This document shows, piece by piece, positions 14,511-25,287 of a DNA stretch of 32,981 nucleotides (the stretch's first letter is position 1; each line of letters begins with the position of its first letter). A program made the translations under genes and the position numbers. The DNA is taken from contig JAUYGN010000132.1 in assembly GCA_030690545.1 (NCBI GenBank), positions 1-32,981 of the forward strand, given 5' to 3'. The DNA is from Solirubrobacteraceae bacterium (GTDB lineage: Bacteria > Actinomycetota > Thermoleophilia > Solirubrobacterales > Solirubrobacteraceae). The notes beneath the pieces were generated by a model, which was given only the letters and a program-made list of their open reading frames with translations, had not been told where the DNA came from and searched no databases.

Positions 14511-15488
14511 ATGAATACAATGCCCGCCGCCTTGGCTCCCGCGCCTCTCCGATCCCGCCGCCGCGTCTTCATGCTCTCGCTCTGCGCGGCGCTCGTCGGC
14601 GTGCTCGCCCTCGCGGGCGGCGCGTCGGCGGGCTTCCTGACCCCCGAGTCGGGCGGCTCGCCGAACGCCGACGACATCGACACGCTCTACAAGATCATCC
14701 TCGCCGTCGCGGTGATCGTGTTCGTCGGCGTCGAGGGCGTCCTGCTGTACTCGCTCGTGAAGTTCCGCGCCCGCAAGGACGCCGTGCCGGCCCAGATCCG
14801 CGGCAACACGCGCCTGGAGATCGGCTGGACGCTCGGCGCATCCGTCGTCCTGATCGTCCTCGCCGTCGTGACGTTCGCGATGCTCCCCGGCATCCGCAAC
14901 CCGCCCGACTCCGACCCGGACGGCTTCCCGACCGACGAGATCGCGACCGTTCAGAATGCGTCGGCCTACCAGCCGCGGCCGCCGAGCGGCGAGGCGCTGA
15001 ACATCGATGTCAACGGCCAGCGCTACGCCTGGCGCTACACGTACCCCGACCAGGACGACAACGTGCTCAACGACGTCTTCAGCTACGAGACGCTCGTCGT
15101 TCCGACGAAGACGACCGTCACGCTCACGATCCGCGCCCAGGACGTCGCGCATTCGTGGTGGATCCCCAAGCTCGGCGGCAAGTTCGACGCCGTGCCGGGC
15201 CATCTGAACTTCACCTGGTTCAAGATCTCCGAGCCCGGCACGTTCAAGGGTCAGTGCGCGGAGCTGTGCGGCCGCAACCACACCGACATGGTCGCCAAGG
15301 TCGTCGCGATCGAGCCCGACGCGTTCGAGCGCTGGCTCGCGAACAAGCGGCGCGAGATCGACGCCGCCAACGCGGCCGCGCAGGAGCGCCGCGCGGCCGA
15401 GGCCGCGGGTCCGACCGACGCGGACGCCGACACGCCCGCCGCGCGCGAGACGCCCGCCGAGCAGACGCCGCCGGACGAGGACGAGTAG
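14511..15488 (+). CDS. ctaC: Cytochrome c oxidase subunit II (cluster 1)
   Basis: 325-residue subunit that carries the CuA electron-entry site. A signal-like segment (FMLSLCAALVGVLALAGGASAG) is followed by two transmembrane helices (about residues 60-83 and 103-126) and a periplasmic cupredoxin domain. CuA ligands are visible: His in VAHSWWIP, then Cys249, Cys253, His257 and Met260 in CAELCGRNHTDM. The C-terminus is an Ala/Glu/Asp-rich hydrophilic tail, not a cytochrome c domain. ATG 14511 is chosen because GGAG at 14493 is nearest; a second in-frame ATG is at 14520. It heads cluster 1; the ctaD start follows by 2 bases. Confidence 0.94.
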   Translation: MNTMPAALAPAPLRSRRRVFMLSLCAALVGVLALAGGASAGFLTPESGGSPNADDIDTLYKIILAVAVIVFVGVEGVLLYSLVKFRARKDAVPAQIRGNTRLEIGWTLGASVVLIVLAVVTFAMLPGIRNPPDSDPDGFPTDEIATVQNASAYQPRPPSGEALNIDVNGQRYAWRYTYPDQDDNVLNDVFSYETLVVPTKTTVTLTIRAQDVAHSWWIPKLGGKFDAVPGHLNFTWFKISEPGTFKGQCAELCGRNHTDMVAKVVAIEPDAFERWLANKRREIDAANAAAQERRAAEAAGPTDADADTPAARETPAEQTPPDEDE

Positions 15489-15490
15489 CC

Positions 15491-17179
15491 ATGGCAACCG
15501 CGAACCCCGCCCTCGTCCCCGAGATCACCGTCCACAGCGTCGAGCCCGAGCCGCGCGGCTGGGTCTCCTGGATCACGACGACCGACCACAAGCGGATCGG
15601 GATCCTCTACCTCGTCACGACGTTCGTCTTCTTCCTGCTGGGCGGCGTCGAGGCGCTGCTGATGCGCGTCCAGCTCGGCGCCCCGGACAACACCTTCCTG
15701 ACGCCGGCGACGTACAACGCGCTCTTCACGCTGCACGGCACGACGATGATCTTCCTCTTCGTCGTGCCGATCATGGCCGGCTTTGGCAACTACTTCCTGC
15801 CGCTGATGATCGGCGCCCGCGACATGGCGTTCCCGAAGCTCAACGCGCTGTCGTACTGGCTGCTGCTGTCGGGCGGGATCGTCTTCTACGTCTCGCTGTT
15901 CTTCTCGCCGCCGGAGGCCGGCTGGACGTCGTATGCGCCGTTATCGGGGAGCGTCTACTCGCCCGGCAGCGGGATCGACGCATGGATCTTCCTGATCCAC
16001 CTGACCGGCATCTCGTCGCTGATCGGGGCGATCAACTTCTACGCGACGATCGCGAACATGCGCGCGCCCGGGATGGGCTGGGGCCGCCTGCCGCTGTTCG
16101 TCTGGTCGCTGCTCGTCTACGCGATCCTGCTGATCCTCGCGCTGCCGGTGATCGCGGGCGCCGTCACGCTGCTGCTGACCGATCGCCACTTCGGGACCGG
16201 CTTCTTCGACCAGGGCCAGGGCGGTGATCCGCTGCTGTGGCAGCACCTGTTCTGGTTCTTCGGCCACCCCGAGGTCTACATCATGATCCTGCCGGGCTTC
16301 GGGATGATCTCGGAGATCCTGCCGGTCTTCGCGCGCAAGCCGATCTTCGGCTACAAGGCGATCGCCGCGGCGACGGTCGTGATCGCGTTCCTCGCCCTGC
16401 TCGTCTGGGCGCACCACATGTTCTCGACGCCGAGCGCGACGATCGTGCTCGTCTTCTTCATGGTCAGCTCGTTCTTGATCGCGATCCCGACGGGCGTGAA
16501 GATCTTCAACTGGATCGCGACGCTGTGGCGCGGGACGGTCGAGTTCAAGACGCCGCTGATCTTCTCGGTCGGCTTCATCTCGGTCTTTTTGATCGGCGGC
16601 ATCACGGGCATCTTCCTGGCCGTCTTCCCGGTCGACTGGCAGCTGACCGACACGTACTTCGTCGTCGCCCACCTGCACTACGTGCTCGTCGGCGGCTCGG
16701 TCTTCGCGATCTTCGCGGGCATCTACTACTGGTATCCGAAGATCACCGGCCGGATGCTGAGCGAGTCGCTGGGCAAGTGGTCGTTCGGGCTGATGTACGT
16801 CGGCATCAACGTCACCTTCCTGATCCAGCACTCGATCGGCCTGGACGGCATGCCGCGACGCGTCTACGAGTACCCCGACGTCGGCAACCTGGCGCTCTAC
16901 AACCTGATCTCGACGATCGGCTCGTTCATGCTCGGGCTCGGCGTCGTGGTGACCGCGTGGAACGTCGTGCGCTCGCTGAAGAAGGGCGCGCGCTCGGGCC
17001 CGGACCCGTGGAAGGCGAACACGCTCGAGTGGTTCCTGCCCTCGCCGCCGCCGGCGAACAACTTCGACGTGATCCCGCGCGTGCGCTCGGTCGAGCCGAT
17101 GAAGGACATCCGTCGCCAGATCGCCCGTCAGTCCGAGACCCCGGTCGAGCTGGGCGCGGCGGAGCCGACGCCCCGGTGA
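15491..17179 (+). CDS. ctaD: Cytochrome c oxidase subunit I, A1-type (cluster 1)
   Basis: 562-residue haem-copper core subunit with about 12 transmembrane helices. Metal ligands are visible: His in FTLHGTTMIF (low-spin haem), His259 of GHPEVY with Tyr263 as the cross-linked pair, WAHHMF (CuB), and VVAHLHYVL (both haems). Glu261 of GHPEVY is the helix VI proton-relay glutamate that defines A1-type oxidases. The D-channel aspartate (GARDMAFPKLN) and K-channel IPTGVK are present. It ends in TGATG, sharing an A with ctaB. No subunit III gene follows in this cluster. Haem type (a or o) cannot be read from sequence. Confidence 0.96.
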   Translation: MATANPALVPEITVHSVEPEPRGWVSWITTTDHKRIGILYLVTTFVFFLLGGVEALLMRVQLGAPDNTFLTPATYNALFTLHGTTMIFLFVVPIMAGFGNYFLPLMIGARDMAFPKLNALSYWLLLSGGIVFYVSLFFSPPEAGWTSYAPLSGSVYSPGSGIDAWIFLIHLTGISSLIGAINFYATIANMRAPGMGWGRLPLFVWSLLVYAILLILALPVIAGAVTLLLTDRHFGTGFFDQGQGGDPLLWQHLFWFFGHPEVYIMILPGFGMISEILPVFARKPIFGYKAIAAATVVIAFLALLVWAHHMFSTPSATIVLVFFMVSSFLIAIPTGVKIFNWIATLWRGTVEFKTPLIFSVGFISVFLIGGITGIFLAVFPVDWQLTDTYFVVAHLHYVLVGGSVFAIFAGIYYWYPKITGRMLSESLGKWSFGLMYVGINVTFLIQHSIGLDGMPRRVYEYPDVGNLALYNLISTIGSFMLGLGVVVTAWNVVRSLKKGARSGPDPWKANTLEWFLPSPPPANNFDVIPRVRSVEPMKDIRRQIARQSETPVELGAAEPTPR

Positions 17180-18992: not shown

Positions 18993-19174
18993 GCCACACC
19001 CGCGCTCGCCGATAGCGGCCCGGGCCGCCGCCACGGGTCGTCCGTGAACGTTTGCGCGGGCCCCGCCAGCGTCGCCGCGCCGGACGCTGCGGTACCGGAT
19101 CGCGTCCGTCGCGCGCACCACATAGGATGCCGGGCCGCATGAGCCAGGGAAGAGGGCGCCAGGAGCGCACGCCA
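18993..19174. promoter_or_regulatory. Intergenic control region of oxidase cluster 2
   Basis: The gap between the AraC-type gene and the second ctaC holds three dyads: the palindrome GCGGCCCGGGCCGC (19015-19028), CACGG-N5-CCGTG (19032-19046) and CAGCGTC-N9-GACGCTG (19067-19089). A -10-like TAGGAT follows at 19123-19128. This would give a leader of about 40 bases carrying AGGAG (19161-19165) before the GTG at 19175. The first palindrome may end the AraC transcript; the others could be operators. Confidence 0.4.
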
Positions 19175-20185
19175 GTGATGTGGATGGTGATCCACGGCCT
19201 GATCGCCTCGGCGATCGGCATCGCCGTCGGCCTGGCGATCAACTGGTTCCCGGAGTCGGCCTCCACGCAGGCCGGCCCGATCGATCGCCTCTACGACATC
19301 CTGATCTGGGTCTCGGTGCCCGTCTTCGTGACGGTGACGATCATCGTGCTCTTCAGCGTGCAGAACTTCCGCATGCGGCCCGGGGAGGAGCAGCTCGACG
19401 GCCCGCCGATCCACGGCAACACGCGGCTGGAGGTCATCTGGACCGCGATTCCCGCGATCATCCTCGTCGTCCTGTGCGGCTATGCCTGGGTCGTCCTGCG
19501 CGACATCGAGGAGGCGCAGGCCGGCGAGATGCGCGTCAACGTCGTCGGCCAGCAGTTCGCCTGGACGTTCGAGTATCCCCAGGCCGACGGCGAGCCGGTC
19601 AGATCGAAGCACCTCTATCTCCCGAAGGACCAGCCGGTGCGCTTCTCCGTCCGGGCGATCGACGTCATCCACGACTTCTGGGTTCCGGCCTTTCGCATGA
19701 AGATCGACGCGGTTCCCGGCATCGAGACGGGGTATCGCATCACGCCCAACCGCCTCGGCACCTATCCGGTCGTCTGCGCGGAGCTGTGCGGCCTCGGCCA
19801 CGCGGTCATGCGCGCGACGACCCGCGTCGTCGAGCCGGCCGCCTTCGAGCGGTGGATCGCCCAGCAGAAGGCGCCCGCACAGGCGAGCGAAGACGGCGAG
19901 GTCGACGGCAAGGCGCTGTTCACCGACGGCAACGGCGCGGCGACCGCCTGCGGCGCCTGCCACACGCTCGCCGACGCCGCCACGTCGAGCGCGACCGGCC
20001 CCGATCTCGACGAGGTCCTGGCGGACAAGGACGCCGCCTACATCGAGCGCGAGATCGTCGATCCGAATGCCGAGATCACGCCGGGATTCCAGACCGGAAT
20101 CATGCCGCCGAACTACGGCGATACGCTCTCGTCGGACGAGCTCGAAGCTCTCGTGACGTATCTCGGCGAGGTGGCCGGGAAGTGA
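19175..20185 (+). CDS. ctaC: Cytochrome c oxidase subunit II fused to cytochrome c (caa3-type, cluster 2)
   Basis: 336-residue subunit II of caa3 type. Two N-terminal membrane helices (MVIHGLIASAIGIAVGLAINW and ILIWVSVPVFVTVTIIVLF) precede the CuA cupredoxin domain with Cys201, Cys205, His209 and Met212 (CAELCGLGHAVM). A C-terminal class I cytochrome c domain follows with CGACH at 259-263 and a likely axial Met310 in IMPPNYG. It accepts electrons directly through the tethered haem c. The start is set at GTG 19175 because AGGAG lies 9 bases before it. ATG 19139, just after a -10-like TAGGAT, would add 12 residues. Confidence 0.93.
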   Translation: MMWMVIHGLIASAIGIAVGLAINWFPESASTQAGPIDRLYDILIWVSVPVFVTVTIIVLFSVQNFRMRPGEEQLDGPPIHGNTRLEVIWTAIPAIILVVLCGYAWVVLRDIEEAQAGEMRVNVVGQQFAWTFEYPQADGEPVRSKHLYLPKDQPVRFSVRAIDVIHDFWVPAFRMKIDAVPGIETGYRITPNRLGTYPVVCAELCGLGHAVMRATTRVVEPAAFERWIAQQKAPAQASEDGEVDGKALFTDGNGAATACGACHTLADAATSSATGPDLDEVLADKDAAYIEREIVDPNAEITPGFQTGIMPPNYGDTLSSDELEALVTYLGEVAGK

Positions 20186-20214: not shown

Positions 20215-22131
20215 ATGGTCGCCAAGTTCCGCGGACCGGGCATGTACAGAGCAGCGCTGGGCACCGCCCTCGGCACGGCGCTCTCGTACGCGATCATCGG
20301 CATCTTCCGCAGCTGGTACGGCCTCGACCCGCTGTTCAAGGGCTACGCCGTCCTCGAGCTGTCGCTGTTCCTCGCCCCGATCGGCTTCCTGATCGGGCTC
20401 GGGGCGTTCGACTACTGGTTCCGCTGGGCCGCCGGCCGGCCGACGATCCCCGACGACCACTCCAGCCACGGCGCGCACTCCTGGCGCGACTACTTCAAGG
20501 TCAACACCGACCACAAGGTCATCGGCATCCAGTACGTCGTGACCTCGTTCGTCTTCTTCTTCATCGGCGGGCTGTTCGCGATGCTGATGCGCGCCGAGCT
20601 TGCCCAGCCGGGCCGCCAGTTCGTCGACCCGAGCACGTTCAACGGCCTCTTCAGCGTCCACGCGTCGCTGCTGATCTTCCTCTTCATCATCCCGGTCTTC
20701 GCGGGCATGGCGAACTACGTCCTGCCGCTCATGATCGGTGCGCCGGACATGGCGTTCCCGCGCCTGAACGCGCTGTCGTTCTGGATGCTGCCGCTGGCCG
20801 GGATCATGATGCTGATGTCCTTCGGGGCGCCGGGCGGCTCGTTCGCCAGCGGCTGGACGGCATACGCGCCGCTGTCGGTGACAGCGCCGGAAGGACAGGT
20901 GTTCTTCACGATCGGCGTGCAGTTCGCGGGCGCGTCGTCGATCGCGACCGCGCTGAACTTCCTCGTGACGATCATCACGATGCGTGCGCCCGGGATGAGC
21001 TTCTTCCGGATGCCGCTGCTCGTGTGGGCGAACTTCTCGACCTCGCTGCTCGTCGTCATCGCGACGCCGTTCATCGCCGTCTCGCAGTTCATGGTCCTCT
21101 TCGACCGCGCGCTGGGCTTCAACTTCTTCAACCCGACCGGCGGCGGCGACGTGCTGATGTACCAGCACATCTTCTGGTTCTACTCGCACCCGGCGGTCTA
21201 CATCATGATGCTGCCCGGGTTCGGGATCATCTCCGAGATCCTCGCCGTCAAGTCGCGAAAGCCGATCTTCGGCTACCGGATGATGGCGTTCTCGCTGCTG
21301 GCGATCGTCGTGCTCGGCTTCACGGTCTGGGCGCACCACATGTTCGTCTCGGGCATGCAGGACTGGATCCGCGTGCCGATGATGATCACGACGGCGATCA
21401 TCGCCGTGCCGACCGGCATCAAGATCTTCTCCTGGCTGGCGACGCTGTGGCGAGGGGTGCTGCACCTCGACACGCCGATGCTGTTCTCGCTGGGCTTCCT
21501 GACGATGTTCACGCTCGGCGGCATCTCCGGCGTGATGCTCGCGATCATCCCCGTGACGATCCACGTCAGCGACACGTACTTCATCGTCGCCCACATCCAC
21601 TACGTGCTGTTCGGCGGCTCGCTGCTGACGATCTTCGCCGGCGTCTACTACTGGTTCCCGAAGATGACCGGGCGGATGTACGACGAGCGCCTCGGCAAGC
21701 TGCACTTCTGGACGACCTTCATCTTCTTCAACGCGACGTTCGCCCCGATGCACGTGATCGGCATCCAGGGCATGCCGCGCCGCGTCGCCGACTATGCCGA
21801 GCAGTGGGCGGGCTGGAACATGGCGATCTCGATCATGAGCTTCTTCCTCGGCCTCAGCGCGCTCCTCTTCGCCTACAACATGATCGTCTCCTGGCGCGGC
21901 GGCCCGCGTGCGGACTCCAATCCCTGGAACGCGCTCACGCTGGAGTGGCTCGTCACGTCGCCGCCGCCGATCTTCAACTTCGACGCGATCCCGACCGTCG
22001 TCGGCGGCCCCTACGAGTACGGCGTGCCCGGCGCGGTGCACGGCGTGCTGAAGGGCGCCGAGGTGCCTCAGCCCGCGGGCGCGACAGCGTCCGGCGCGAG
22101 CCACGGATCAGCCACGAAGGACCAGGAGTAG
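20215..22131 (+). CDS. ctaD: Cytochrome c oxidase subunit I, A2-type with N-terminal extension (cluster 2)
   Basis: 638-residue core subunit. About 100 extra N-terminal residues contain two hydrophobic segments (AALGTALGTALSYAIIGIF and LELSLFLAPIGFLIGLGAF) before the usual start at DHKVIGIQYV. Metal ligands are intact: SVHASLLIF, His325/Tyr329 in YSHPAVY, WAHHMF and VAHIHYVL. Helix VI has Tyr323-Ser324-His-Pro-Ala327 where A1 oxidases have GHPE; loss of Glu with a YS pair is the mark of A2-type oxidases such as the Rhodothermus caa3 enzyme. The D-region GAPDMAFPRLN and K-channel IPTGIK are kept. The C-terminus is a polar tail (SGASHGSATKDQE). Confidence 0.95.
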   Translation: MVAKFRGPGMYRAALGTALGTALSYAIIGIFRSWYGLDPLFKGYAVLELSLFLAPIGFLIGLGAFDYWFRWAAGRPTIPDDHSSHGAHSWRDYFKVNTDHKVIGIQYVVTSFVFFFIGGLFAMLMRAELAQPGRQFVDPSTFNGLFSVHASLLIFLFIIPVFAGMANYVLPLMIGAPDMAFPRLNALSFWMLPLAGIMMLMSFGAPGGSFASGWTAYAPLSVTAPEGQVFFTIGVQFAGASSIATALNFLVTIITMRAPGMSFFRMPLLVWANFSTSLLVVIATPFIAVSQFMVLFDRALGFNFFNPTGGGDVLMYQHIFWFYSHPAVYIMMLPGFGIISEILAVKSRKPIFGYRMMAFSLLAIVVLGFTVWAHHMFVSGMQDWIRVPMMITTAIIAVPTGIKIFSWLATLWRGVLHLDTPMLFSLGFLTMFTLGGISGVMLAIIPVTIHVSDTYFIVAHIHYVLFGGSLLTIFAGVYYWFPKMTGRMYDERLGKLHFWTTFIFFNATFAPMHVIGIQGMPRRVADYAEQWAGWNMAISIMSFFLGLSALLFAYNMIVSWRGGPRADSNPWNALTLEWLVTSPPPIFNFDAIPTVVGGPYEYGVPGAVHGVLKGAEVPQPAGATASGASHGSATKDQE

Positions 22132-22137
22132 GCCACG

Positions 22138-22974
22138 ATGTCCAAGCACATCCTCGTCGTCGCGAACCAGACGATCGGCGGCGCCAAGCTGCTGGACCTG
22201 GTGCGCGAGCGCGCCAAGGAGCCCGACACGAGCTTCACGCTCGTGATCCCGATGACGCGCCCGCGCTCGGGCTACGTCATCTACGACGACGCCGTGCGCG
22301 ACTCGGCACAGGTGCGCCTGGACCTGACGCTGTCCTACCTGCGCGGCGTCGACGTCGTCGCCAGCGGTGAGCTCGGCGACGAGGACCCCTACACCGCGAC
22401 GCTCGACGCGATCGACGAGTACAAGCCCGACGAGGTCATCATCTCGACGCTGCCGCTGTCGTCCTCGGGCTGGCTGCGACGCGACCTGATCGAGCGCATC
22501 GAGGACGGCACCGGCGTGCCCGTCACGCACGTCATCTCCGACATGGACGCCGACGGCCTGCCGTTCAACGTCACGCTCGTCGTCGCCAACGTGACCGCCG
22601 GCCGCGGGACGCTGCGCGCCCGCATGAAGGAGGTCGCCGCCGAGGTCGACGACATGCTCTTCATCGTCGTCGTCCCGCTGCAGTCCCACGGCGACGGCCG
22701 CGCGGCCGCGGTCGCGCGTGCGCGGCTGGGCAACACGCTGGACAAGATGCGCCGCGAGGGTCTGCTCGTCGCCGGCATGGTCGGCGATCCCGACCCGTAC
22801 ACCGCGACGATGAACGCGCTGCAGTTCTACAAGGTGTCGCGGATCATCGTCTCGACGCTGCCGGTCACGCGCTCGGGCTGGCTGCGCGCCGACCTCATCA
22901 CGCGGCTGCGCAAGGCCTCCAACATCGCCGTCGAGCACATCGTCGCCGAGCAGCCCGCCGAGGCGGCCTCCTGA
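22138..22974 (+). CDS. Tandem universal-stress-like Rossmann protein inside the oxidase operon
   Basis: 278-residue soluble protein built of two similar halves (about 1-137 and 138-278). Both start with a strand ILVVAN/TLVVAN. Both contain GD-DPYTAT-(L/M)-(D/N)A and end with (V/I)I(I/V)STLP…SGWLR-DLI-R. This is the layout of duplicated universal stress proteins, but the classic GxxG…GS(T/S) nucleotide loop is not evident and STLP…SGW takes its place. It lies 6 bases after ctaD and overlaps ctaE by 3 bases (TGATG), so it is made with the oxidase. Possible jobs are assembly, redox or nucleotide sensing; none is proven. Confidence 0.78.
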   Translation: MSKHILVVANQTIGGAKLLDLVRERAKEPDTSFTLVIPMTRPRSGYVIYDDAVRDSAQVRLDLTLSYLRGVDVVASGELGDEDPYTATLDAIDEYKPDEVIISTLPLSSSGWLRRDLIERIEDGTGVPVTHVISDMDADGLPFNVTLVVANVTAGRGTLRARMKEVAAEVDDMLFIVVVPLQSHGDGRAAAVARARLGNTLDKMRREGLLVAGMVGDPDPYTATMNALQFYKVSRIIVSTLPVTRSGWLRADLITRLRKASNIAVEHIVAEQPAEAAS

Positions 22975-23618
22975 TGGAGGCCGCCGGCATCAGCGCGGGC
23001 ATCGCGCTCGACCACCACGACGACGGGCACGACGACCACCACCACGGGCCTCCTCCGGCGAACCGCAGCTCGCGCGTGTCGCACGAGGTGCTCGGGATGC
23101 TGCTGTTCATCATCTCGGAGATCATGGTGTTCGCGGCATTCTTCGCCGCGTACTTCTTCATCCGGCTCGTGGCCGAGGGCCACCGCTGGTTCCCCTTCGA
23201 GGGCTACGAGCTGCCGGTCGCGATCGCCGGCGTCAACACCGCGATCCTGCTCAGCTCGTCGCTGACGATGCACTGGGCGCAGGTCTCGATCAAGAACGGC
23301 AACCGCTTCGGGCTGAAGGTCGGCATGGTGCTCACCTCGCTGCTCGGCGCGACCTTCCTGTTCATCCAGATCAACGAGTACATCCACATCGGCTTCTCGC
23401 CGCAGGACCACGCGCAGGGCACGATCTTCTACGGCCTGACGGGCCTGCACGGCGCCCACGTGCTCGTCGGCCTGTCGCTACTGATCATCGTCACCGTGCG
23501 GGCGTTCCGCGGGCACTTCTCGCCCGAGCACCACCACGGCGTCGAGATCCCCGGCATCTACTGGCATTTCGTCGACGTCATGTGGATCGTCGTCTACACG
23601 GCGATCTACATCATCTAG
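22974..23618 (+). CDS. ctaE: Cytochrome c oxidase subunit III
   Basis: 214-residue membrane protein with five hydrophobic helices. Family landmarks are GMLLFIISEIMVFAAFFAAYFFIR near the start, NTAILLSSSLTMHWA, YGLTGLHGAHVLVGL, and the C-terminal IPGIYWHFVDVMWIVVYTAIYI with the conserved WHFVDxxW. The cytoplasmic N-terminus is rich in His and Asp (HHDDGHDDHHHG), unlike most homologues, and may bind metal. It is the only subunit III gene in the window although two subunit I genes are present, and it belongs to cluster 2 by coupling to the preceding gene. Confidence 0.95.
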   Translation: MEAAGISAGIALDHHDDGHDDHHHGPPPANRSSRVSHEVLGMLLFIISEIMVFAAFFAAYFFIRLVAEGHRWFPFEGYELPVAIAGVNTAILLSSSLTMHWAQVSIKNGNRFGLKVGMVLTSLLGATFLFIQINEYIHIGFSPQDHAQGTIFYGLTGLHGAHVLVGLSLLIIVTVRAFRGHFSPEHHHGVEIPGIYWHFVDVMWIVVYTAIYII

Positions 23619-24543: not shown

Positions 24544-25287
24544 CTACTCGACGGTCAGCGTCCCCTCCATGCCGCCCTCGCGATGGCCGGCGACGGTGCA
24601 GTAGAAGGCGTACTCGCCGGCCGCGAGCGTCACGTCGACCCTCGAGACGCCGCCGTCCTGCACGACCTCGCCGCGCTCGTCGACGCCGTTGCCCTCGATC
24701 GCGATGTCGTGCGGGACGGAGGACTCGTTCTCGGAGGTGATCTCCAGCGGGCCGGGCGGAGCCGTCGCGACCTTCGTGATGTAGGCGAGCTGGCCACCGG
24801 GATCGGCGGGCAGCGCGAGCACGCCGTCCTCTGCCGCGACGGGCTCGCCGTCGCCCGCCGCCGCGACGGCGCTGCCGAGCTTGCCGGCGTCCTCGCCGGG
24901 CAGGGCGGCTACGGTCGCGACGTAGGCGGCGACGTCGCTGGCGAGCTTGCCGGTCACGAGATCCGCAGGCATGTAGCCGGGATGGTCCGGCGGCAGGATC
25001 GCCGGATAGAGGATCTGCTCACGCACGACGCCGTGGATCGTGCCGCGCCCCAGGCCATCGTTGATCGATTGGCGGAAGGCCTCGTCGAGGTCCGGGCCCG
25101 CGATGCCCTTCGTGTCCGCGCGAGCGAGCACGTGGCAGGACCCGCACTTCTCGACGAAGGCCTGCTTGCCGGCGATCAGATCGGCGTTGCTGCCGACGTC
25201 GTCGGCCCCGCAGGCGCTCAATCCCGCGGCGAGAACCCCGCACGCGGCAAGGCCCAGAAATCTCGTCCTCAATGGTGTCGGGGTCAT
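24544..25287 (-). CDS. Lipoprotein fusing cytochrome c and cupredoxin domains
   Basis: 247-residue exported electron-transfer protein. The lipobox LSAC (Cys26) anchors it to the outer face of the membrane. Residues about 35-125 form a class I cytochrome c with CGSCH (48-52) and a likely Met ligand in HPGYMPADLV. After a linker (EDAGKLGSAVAAAGDGEP), residues about 155-247 form a plastocyanin-like domain with all type 1 copper ligands: His193 (VPHDIAIEG), Cys230, His235 and Met240 (YCTVAGHREGGM). It lies close to the two oxidase clusters on the opposite strand and is a candidate donor or relay for one of them. A -10-like TAGACT lies 11 bases before the ATG. Confidence 0.9.
   Translation of the reverse strand: MTPTPLRTRFLGLAACGVLAAGLSACGADDVGSNADLIAGKQAFVEKCGSCHVLARADTKGIAGPDLDEAFRQSINDGLGRGTIHGVVREQILYPAILPPDHPGYMPADLVTGKLASDVAAYVATVAALPGEDAGKLGSAVAAAGDGEPVAAEDGVLALPADPGGQLAYITKVATAPPGPLEITSENESSVPHDIAIEGNGVDERGEVVQDGGVSRVDVTLAAGEYAFYCTVAGHREGGMEGTLTVE

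Follow-up and report, generated by a model that had tools for sequence, protein, structure and literature searches.

A Divergent Tandem Universal Stress Protein at the A2-Type caa3 Oxidase Locus of Thermoleophilia-Type Actinobacteria: a Probable Accessory Subunit Acting at Subunit I

Why does a soluble protein made of two domains resembling universal stress proteins (USPs) lie between the genes for subunits I and III of a terminal oxidase? The question is raised by a stretch of 32,981 nucleotides (nt) of Solirubrobacteraceae DNA, hereafter the window (contig JAUYGN010000132.1, assembly GCA_030690545.1; source genome of 3.5 Mb in 149 contigs). Its caa3-type A2 oxidase operon has the order ctaC, ctaD (A2), tandem USP-like gene, and ctaE (Table 1). 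The tandem gene starts with ATG after a gap of 6 nt from the end of ctaD and stops with a TGA (positions 22972 to 22974) whose A is the first base of the ctaE ATG, and these open reading frame (ORF) coordinates agree with the spacing and overlap given by an earlier reading of this DNA (the original prediction). The A2-type assignment comes from the operon CtaD, which has FWFYSHPAVYIMMLPG, whereas the second CtaD of the window (positions 15155 to 17179) has FWFFGHPEVYIMILPG; the latter, A1-type ctaD lies upstream of the operon with ctaB. The gene overlap and gene order suggest that the tandem protein is made together with the oxidase. We propose that it probably serves the A2-type caa3 oxidase of Thermoleophilia-type actinobacteria as a dedicated accessory subunit on the cytoplasmic side, acting at subunit I and most likely regulatory.

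The protein is the product of a duplication. Aligned with each other over nearly their full length, its two halves score 225, against 28 ± 5 for shuffled sequences (maximum, 54), and they share the blocks GD(E/P)DPYTAT and STLP...SGWLR(R/A)DLI.R. The repeat is also visible in the high-scoring AlphaFold2 model (built from 55 sequences), in which each half forms a beta-alpha-beta domain. Structure searches with the model recovered first TT0030 of Thermus thermophilus (PDB code 2IEL; Z = 19.1, 2.2 Å over 126 residues, on the C-terminal half) and then USPs at Z scores of 11 to 13, including TeaD, TTHA0350, and AMP-bound USPs. The predicted fold of both halves, in the model and in its structure matches, is thus the five-stranded parallel alpha/beta domain of USPs. 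By sequence, too, TT0030 is the sole solved structure recovered (phmmer E = 7.9e-8; profile A4, built without a 2IEL-like row, E = 5.6e-29); the similarity spans the whole domain in sequence and fold and includes a common STLP...S-x-W loop, placing the tandem protein in the TT0030 family, although TT0030 itself is a single-domain, uncharacterized protein with no known link to an oxidase. The whole window protein gave no match to the Pfam Usp family (PF00582), whose gathering score of 24 the first half alone also failed to reach, and no Pfam or NCBIfam family reached its cutoff on the protein. Single-domain relatives reach Pfam Usp at an E value of 1.2e-6, in a 19-member alignment that includes one 2IEL-like row. 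Matches to T2SSL/GspL, a GAN nuclease, and other Pfam and NCBIfam entries were weak, below the cutoff, and confined to partial stretches, and we discounted them as chance. We accordingly assign the tandem protein to the USP superfamily by its modeled fold, not by Pfam, as a divergent branch together with TT0030. The original prediction of two USP-like repeats of about 138 residues with common blocks is therefore borne out, the alternative of a fold unrelated to USP/Rossmann domains having found no support in the structure prediction.

The original prediction had also noted that the standard USP nucleotide loop is not seen; indeed, the USP motif G-x2-G-x9-G-[ST] is absent from the window protein and from all 95 alignment rows tested (alignments A1, A4, and A5). 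The region of the canonical nucleotide motif, after the fourth strand, is instead occupied by an STxP...S-x-W loop. With family and genus groups denoted by f and g codes, this loop is kept in both the N and the C halves in f1 and f2 and in the C half only in f3; in f5, at least its P...S-x-W part is kept in the N half (strict pattern, 3/7), and the loop is lost from the C half. Since the losses in f3 and f5 are complementary between the halves, they suggest that a protein needs no more than one working site but that a site still matters. The missing motif is no proof that nucleotide binding has been lost, given that TTHA0350 binds ATP although no motif can be detected in it (PMC12159084).

We then turn to how constant the association with the oxidase is. 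The 62 named loci were collected by a profile search of contigs with the closer alignment A3, which biases them to Solirubrobacterales. Among them, ctaD immediately precedes the tandem in 59/59 cases with room for it (gap of −4 to 51 nt in those with an assignable start), and ctaE immediately follows it in 60/60 with room. At the level of the order, a match is present in 170 of 201 genomes and is a full-length tandem in about 130, and comparison within genomes puts ctaD and the tandem side by side. Across 249 genomes of the class, the gene is adjacent to or fused with 121 of the 150 listed A2 ctaD rows; the remaining 16 USP matches, for which no ctaD was listed, have ctaD upstream where the contig allows and ctaE downstream in every case (16/16), for a total of 137 ctaD-linked matches. 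Genomes with only an A1-type ctaD contain at most single-domain matches, and outside the class, in the phylum sample, this type of ctaD and the tandem occur together only in genome G374. The gene thus has an obligatory place in the oxidase operon, which is one mark of an accessory subunit. The sole tandem from outside the class (L061) sits on a short contig of 9,008 bases (C166 of G374), equal in length to that of L118, in an 83% complete metagenome-assembled genome (MAG); the contig is likely misbinned, or else the tandem was transferred. Two further records, L122 and L126, are titled as Bifidobacterium breve MAGs and have Solirubrobacterales-type oxidase operons; their titles look wrong.

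A second mark of an accessory subunit, covalent fusion to a core subunit, is found in two related families. In the sister family f5 as a whole, the tandem continues CtaD in frame at its C terminus (33 genomes, with coordinates and open frames in agreement), and translation of six of these loci gave uninterrupted ORFs of about 877 to 916 amino acids (aa) that run from the CtaD core through a conserved tail (GGPYQYGIPGARHAV...) into the USP domains. In f74, a single USP-like domain is fused to CtaD in 4/4 genomes, with frames of 808 to 843 aa. The fusion point in these relatives is the C-terminal tail of CtaD. Other apparent fusions did not qualify: the long ORFs around the gene in f8 and in some f1 and f2 genomes are other-frame open frames in GC-rich DNA, and in G037 (L153) the ctaD match breaks near residue 569. 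Of all the gene comparisons, the fusions speak most strongly for action at CtaD by the separate window protein as well. Their permanence favors a stoichiometric subunit over a transient assembly factor, and their presence in two families strengthens the claim of the original prediction that the protein is dedicated to a terminal oxidase. That claim could have failed had the gene usually lain away from oxidase genes; the survey found it always beside those of the A2 oxidase.

The fusions also bear on whether the tandem might be a free-standing stress-signaling USP whose site of action is elsewhere in the cell and whose only tie to the oxidase is coexpression. Stress proteins of the USP type are commonly diffusible, and in most lineages the tandem is indeed a separate soluble protein. 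However, the attachment to CtaD in f5 and f74 is hard to reconcile with such a role, the ctaD-linked domains group in a separate clade (see below), and two other relatives with a single domain, encoded apart from ctaD in the window genome, could fill that role. We therefore consider a free-standing role quite improbable. The two relatives (L002 and L003) are on contigs C13 and C5, and one of them adjoins a phosphoribulokinase-like ORF.

A phylogeny of 89 domains unites every ctaD-linked domain, be it an N half, a C half, or a fused single, in one clade with support of 98/94, separate from the free singles and from a membrane-anchored type described below; the C halves of f1 to f3 likewise form one clade (99/98). 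The tree is based on 138 columns, and its deep forks are unsure. The linked domains thus share a common origin, and a single recruitment to the oxidase locus is the simplest reading of the phylogeny. The ratio of nonsynonymous to synonymous substitutions (dN/dS) within the genus is 0.25 to 0.35 for the tandem, against 0.19 to 0.21 for CtaD, and values this low indicate that the protein is maintained by purifying selection. The absence of the tandem from some lineages could be taken to mean that it is a chance neighbor, a hitchhiker without any function in the oxidase. This is contradicted by the survey, in which the same slot is occupied in every one of about 200 loci from several families, as well as by the low dN/dS and the fusions in two families, and we give it practically no credence.

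Several observations weigh against a role as a regulatory accessory subunit. The tandem changes faster than ctaD (identity within the family of about 55% versus 78%). Oxidase genes ctaD and ctaE of the same type occur without a USP gene in g11 and some g3 genomes (both groups of one family), in f4, f9, and some f8 genomes, and in at least one f3 genome, so that the oxidase can work without the tandem, which is dispensable to that extent. The CtaD tails look alike with and without the partner; distinct tails were sought in the lineages that lack it and did not appear, so that no binding signature was seen there. Finally, the missing ATP motif says nothing on what, if anything, is bound. Some of the same evidence would suit a structural or assembly/stability factor, whose task would be to hold or protect subunit I at its cytoplasmic side, whether in the course of assembly or later, with no sensing. 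The position of the gene between those of subunits I and III, with its 1-nt overlap, agrees with this, as do the fusion to CtaD, which fits a structural part, the missing nucleotide motif, and the loss of the loop from one half in f3 and from the other in f5, by which full pockets are not needed twice. Yet most copies retain the loop in one half or both, a permanent fusion is unfit for a transient chaperone, and the lineages without the tandem have apparently intact oxidase operons. On balance, we regard such a factor as rather unlikely.

If the tandem is instead a regulatory accessory subunit, its mode of action may be pictured as follows. The two USP domains in one chain would mimic a USP dimer and dock on the cytoplasmic face of subunit I; the likeliest site is close to the C-terminal tail of CtaD, the point at which the same domains are covalently attached in sister families. 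From these gene arrangements we infer a physical association with CtaD in the window species itself, on the cytoplasmic side and in a fixed stoichiometry. The conserved STxP...S-x-W pocket, found in place of the ATP loop and retained by nearly every copy in one or both halves, could bind a small cytoplasmic ligand or a modified partner, and this binding could tune the activity or stability of the oxidase; both the ligand and the regulatory effect are speculative. As a further step, which we offer only tentatively and at less than even confidence, the tandem might be a cytoplasmic sensor built into a proton-pumping terminal oxidase. In most of an actinobacterial class, respiration would then be adjusted directly at the enzyme by a module that binds a ligand and is fused or locked to subunit I. 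Haem-copper oxidases are generally viewed as controlled through the way they are expressed and assembled and through small membrane subunits. With a soluble stress-protein module on subunit I, the state of the cytoplasm would have a direct route to the last step of respiration. The USP superfamily, in which molecular roles are to our knowledge mostly unknown, would also gain a concrete partner for one of its branches. The lineages with and without the module offer a natural comparison, and the f5-type CtaD is a single chain that includes it.

Known systems resemble this arrangement in part. UspE of Escherichia coli (5CB0), TTHA0350 (3AB7/3AB8), AF1760 (3LOQ), and Rv2623 likewise have two USP domains per chain and are among the top Foldseek matches, yet they are only 10 to 16% identical to the window protein and are free-standing stress proteins outside oxidase operons. 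TeaD is a soluble USP encoded with, and modulating, the tripartite ATP-independent periplasmic (TRAP) transporter TeaABC (PMC9006882). It is similarly tied to a membrane complex (Z = 13.1) but is a single-domain, ATP-binding protein with another partner and no fusion. USP-1 with subunit IV enhances the activity of cytochrome bc1 in Rhodobacter sphaeroides, according to the account of Su et al. (2015) cited in PMC10041115; going by that account, a USP alters the activity of a respiratory complex there too, though of a complex other than the window oxidase. USP domains are also fused to permeases and exchangers (PMC12159084), and the C-terminal domains of NKCC1, NCC, and KCC are structure matches at Z scores of 8 to 11. 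These place a USP-fold domain at the cytoplasmic end of a membrane protein, but the proteins are transporters, not haem-copper oxidases. Our literature search (USP with ctaD, haem-copper oxidase, or Solirubrobacter), which left subscription papers mostly outside, found no link between a USP domain and a haem-copper oxidase.

In f3 and f8, the region 3' of ctaE encodes a further protein, which combines one USP domain with about two hydrophobic segments (Table 1). The copy in L056 passes Pfam Usp with 27.8 bits, and some f8 genomes keep this membrane-anchored protein only, without the tandem. It is possibly a second USP-bearing subunit of the oxidase.

Table 1. Coordinates of the tandem gene, its domains, the oxidase genes of the window, and membrane-anchored USP proteins of related loci (pLDDT, predicted local distance difference test; pTM, predicted template modeling score)
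Feature	Position	Strand	Evidence or context
Tandem USP-like protein, 278 aa (P0001)	22138..22974	+	ORF; AlphaFold2 pLDDT 90.1, pTM 0.87
N-terminal USP-like domain, residues 1-138, GDEDPYTAT and STLPLSSSGWLRRDLIER	22138..22551	+	Half alignment; Pfam Usp 15.4 bits, E 0.029; model strands/helices
C-terminal USP-like domain, residues 139-278, GDPDPYTAT and STLPVTRSGWLRADLITR	22552..22971	+	Half alignment; 2IEL on residues 144-270
ctaD, A2-type (YSHPAV) oxidase subunit I with N-terminal extension	20215..22131	+	PF00115 E 8.5e-156; TIGR02891 above cutoff
ctaE, oxidase subunit III	22974..23618	+	PF00510 E 1.4e-41
ctaC, subunit II with fused cytochrome c domain (caa3 type)	19052..20185	+	PF00116, PF02790, PF00034
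Membrane-anchored single-USP protein (NPLRSE...AFR start)	L050 10513-11187; L055 5370-6026	Both oriented with ctaD on +	3' of ctaE
Membrane-anchored single-USP protein (NPLRSE...AFR start)	L051 8737-9387; L056 4886-5539	+	3' of ctaE

The true start of ctaC may lie downstream of the listed TTG. A scan for sigma-70 promoters and terminators gave nothing above shuffled sequences. The source genome falls among MAGs with the name Solirubrobacteraceae, the closest of which has a protein 92% identical to the tandem. Second, long-form copies of ctaD occur in f3 (L047 and L049, in G106 and G068) among purine-synthesis genes, with no ctaC, ctaE, or USP gene nearby. Downstream of the operon, a lipoprotein-like ORF on the minus strand (positions 24544 to 25287) appears by eye to combine a cytochrome c domain (CGSCH) with a cupredoxin-like domain and may encode a linked electron carrier; in many related loci, the cytochrome c part of ctaC has minus-strand tblastn matches 3' of ctaE.
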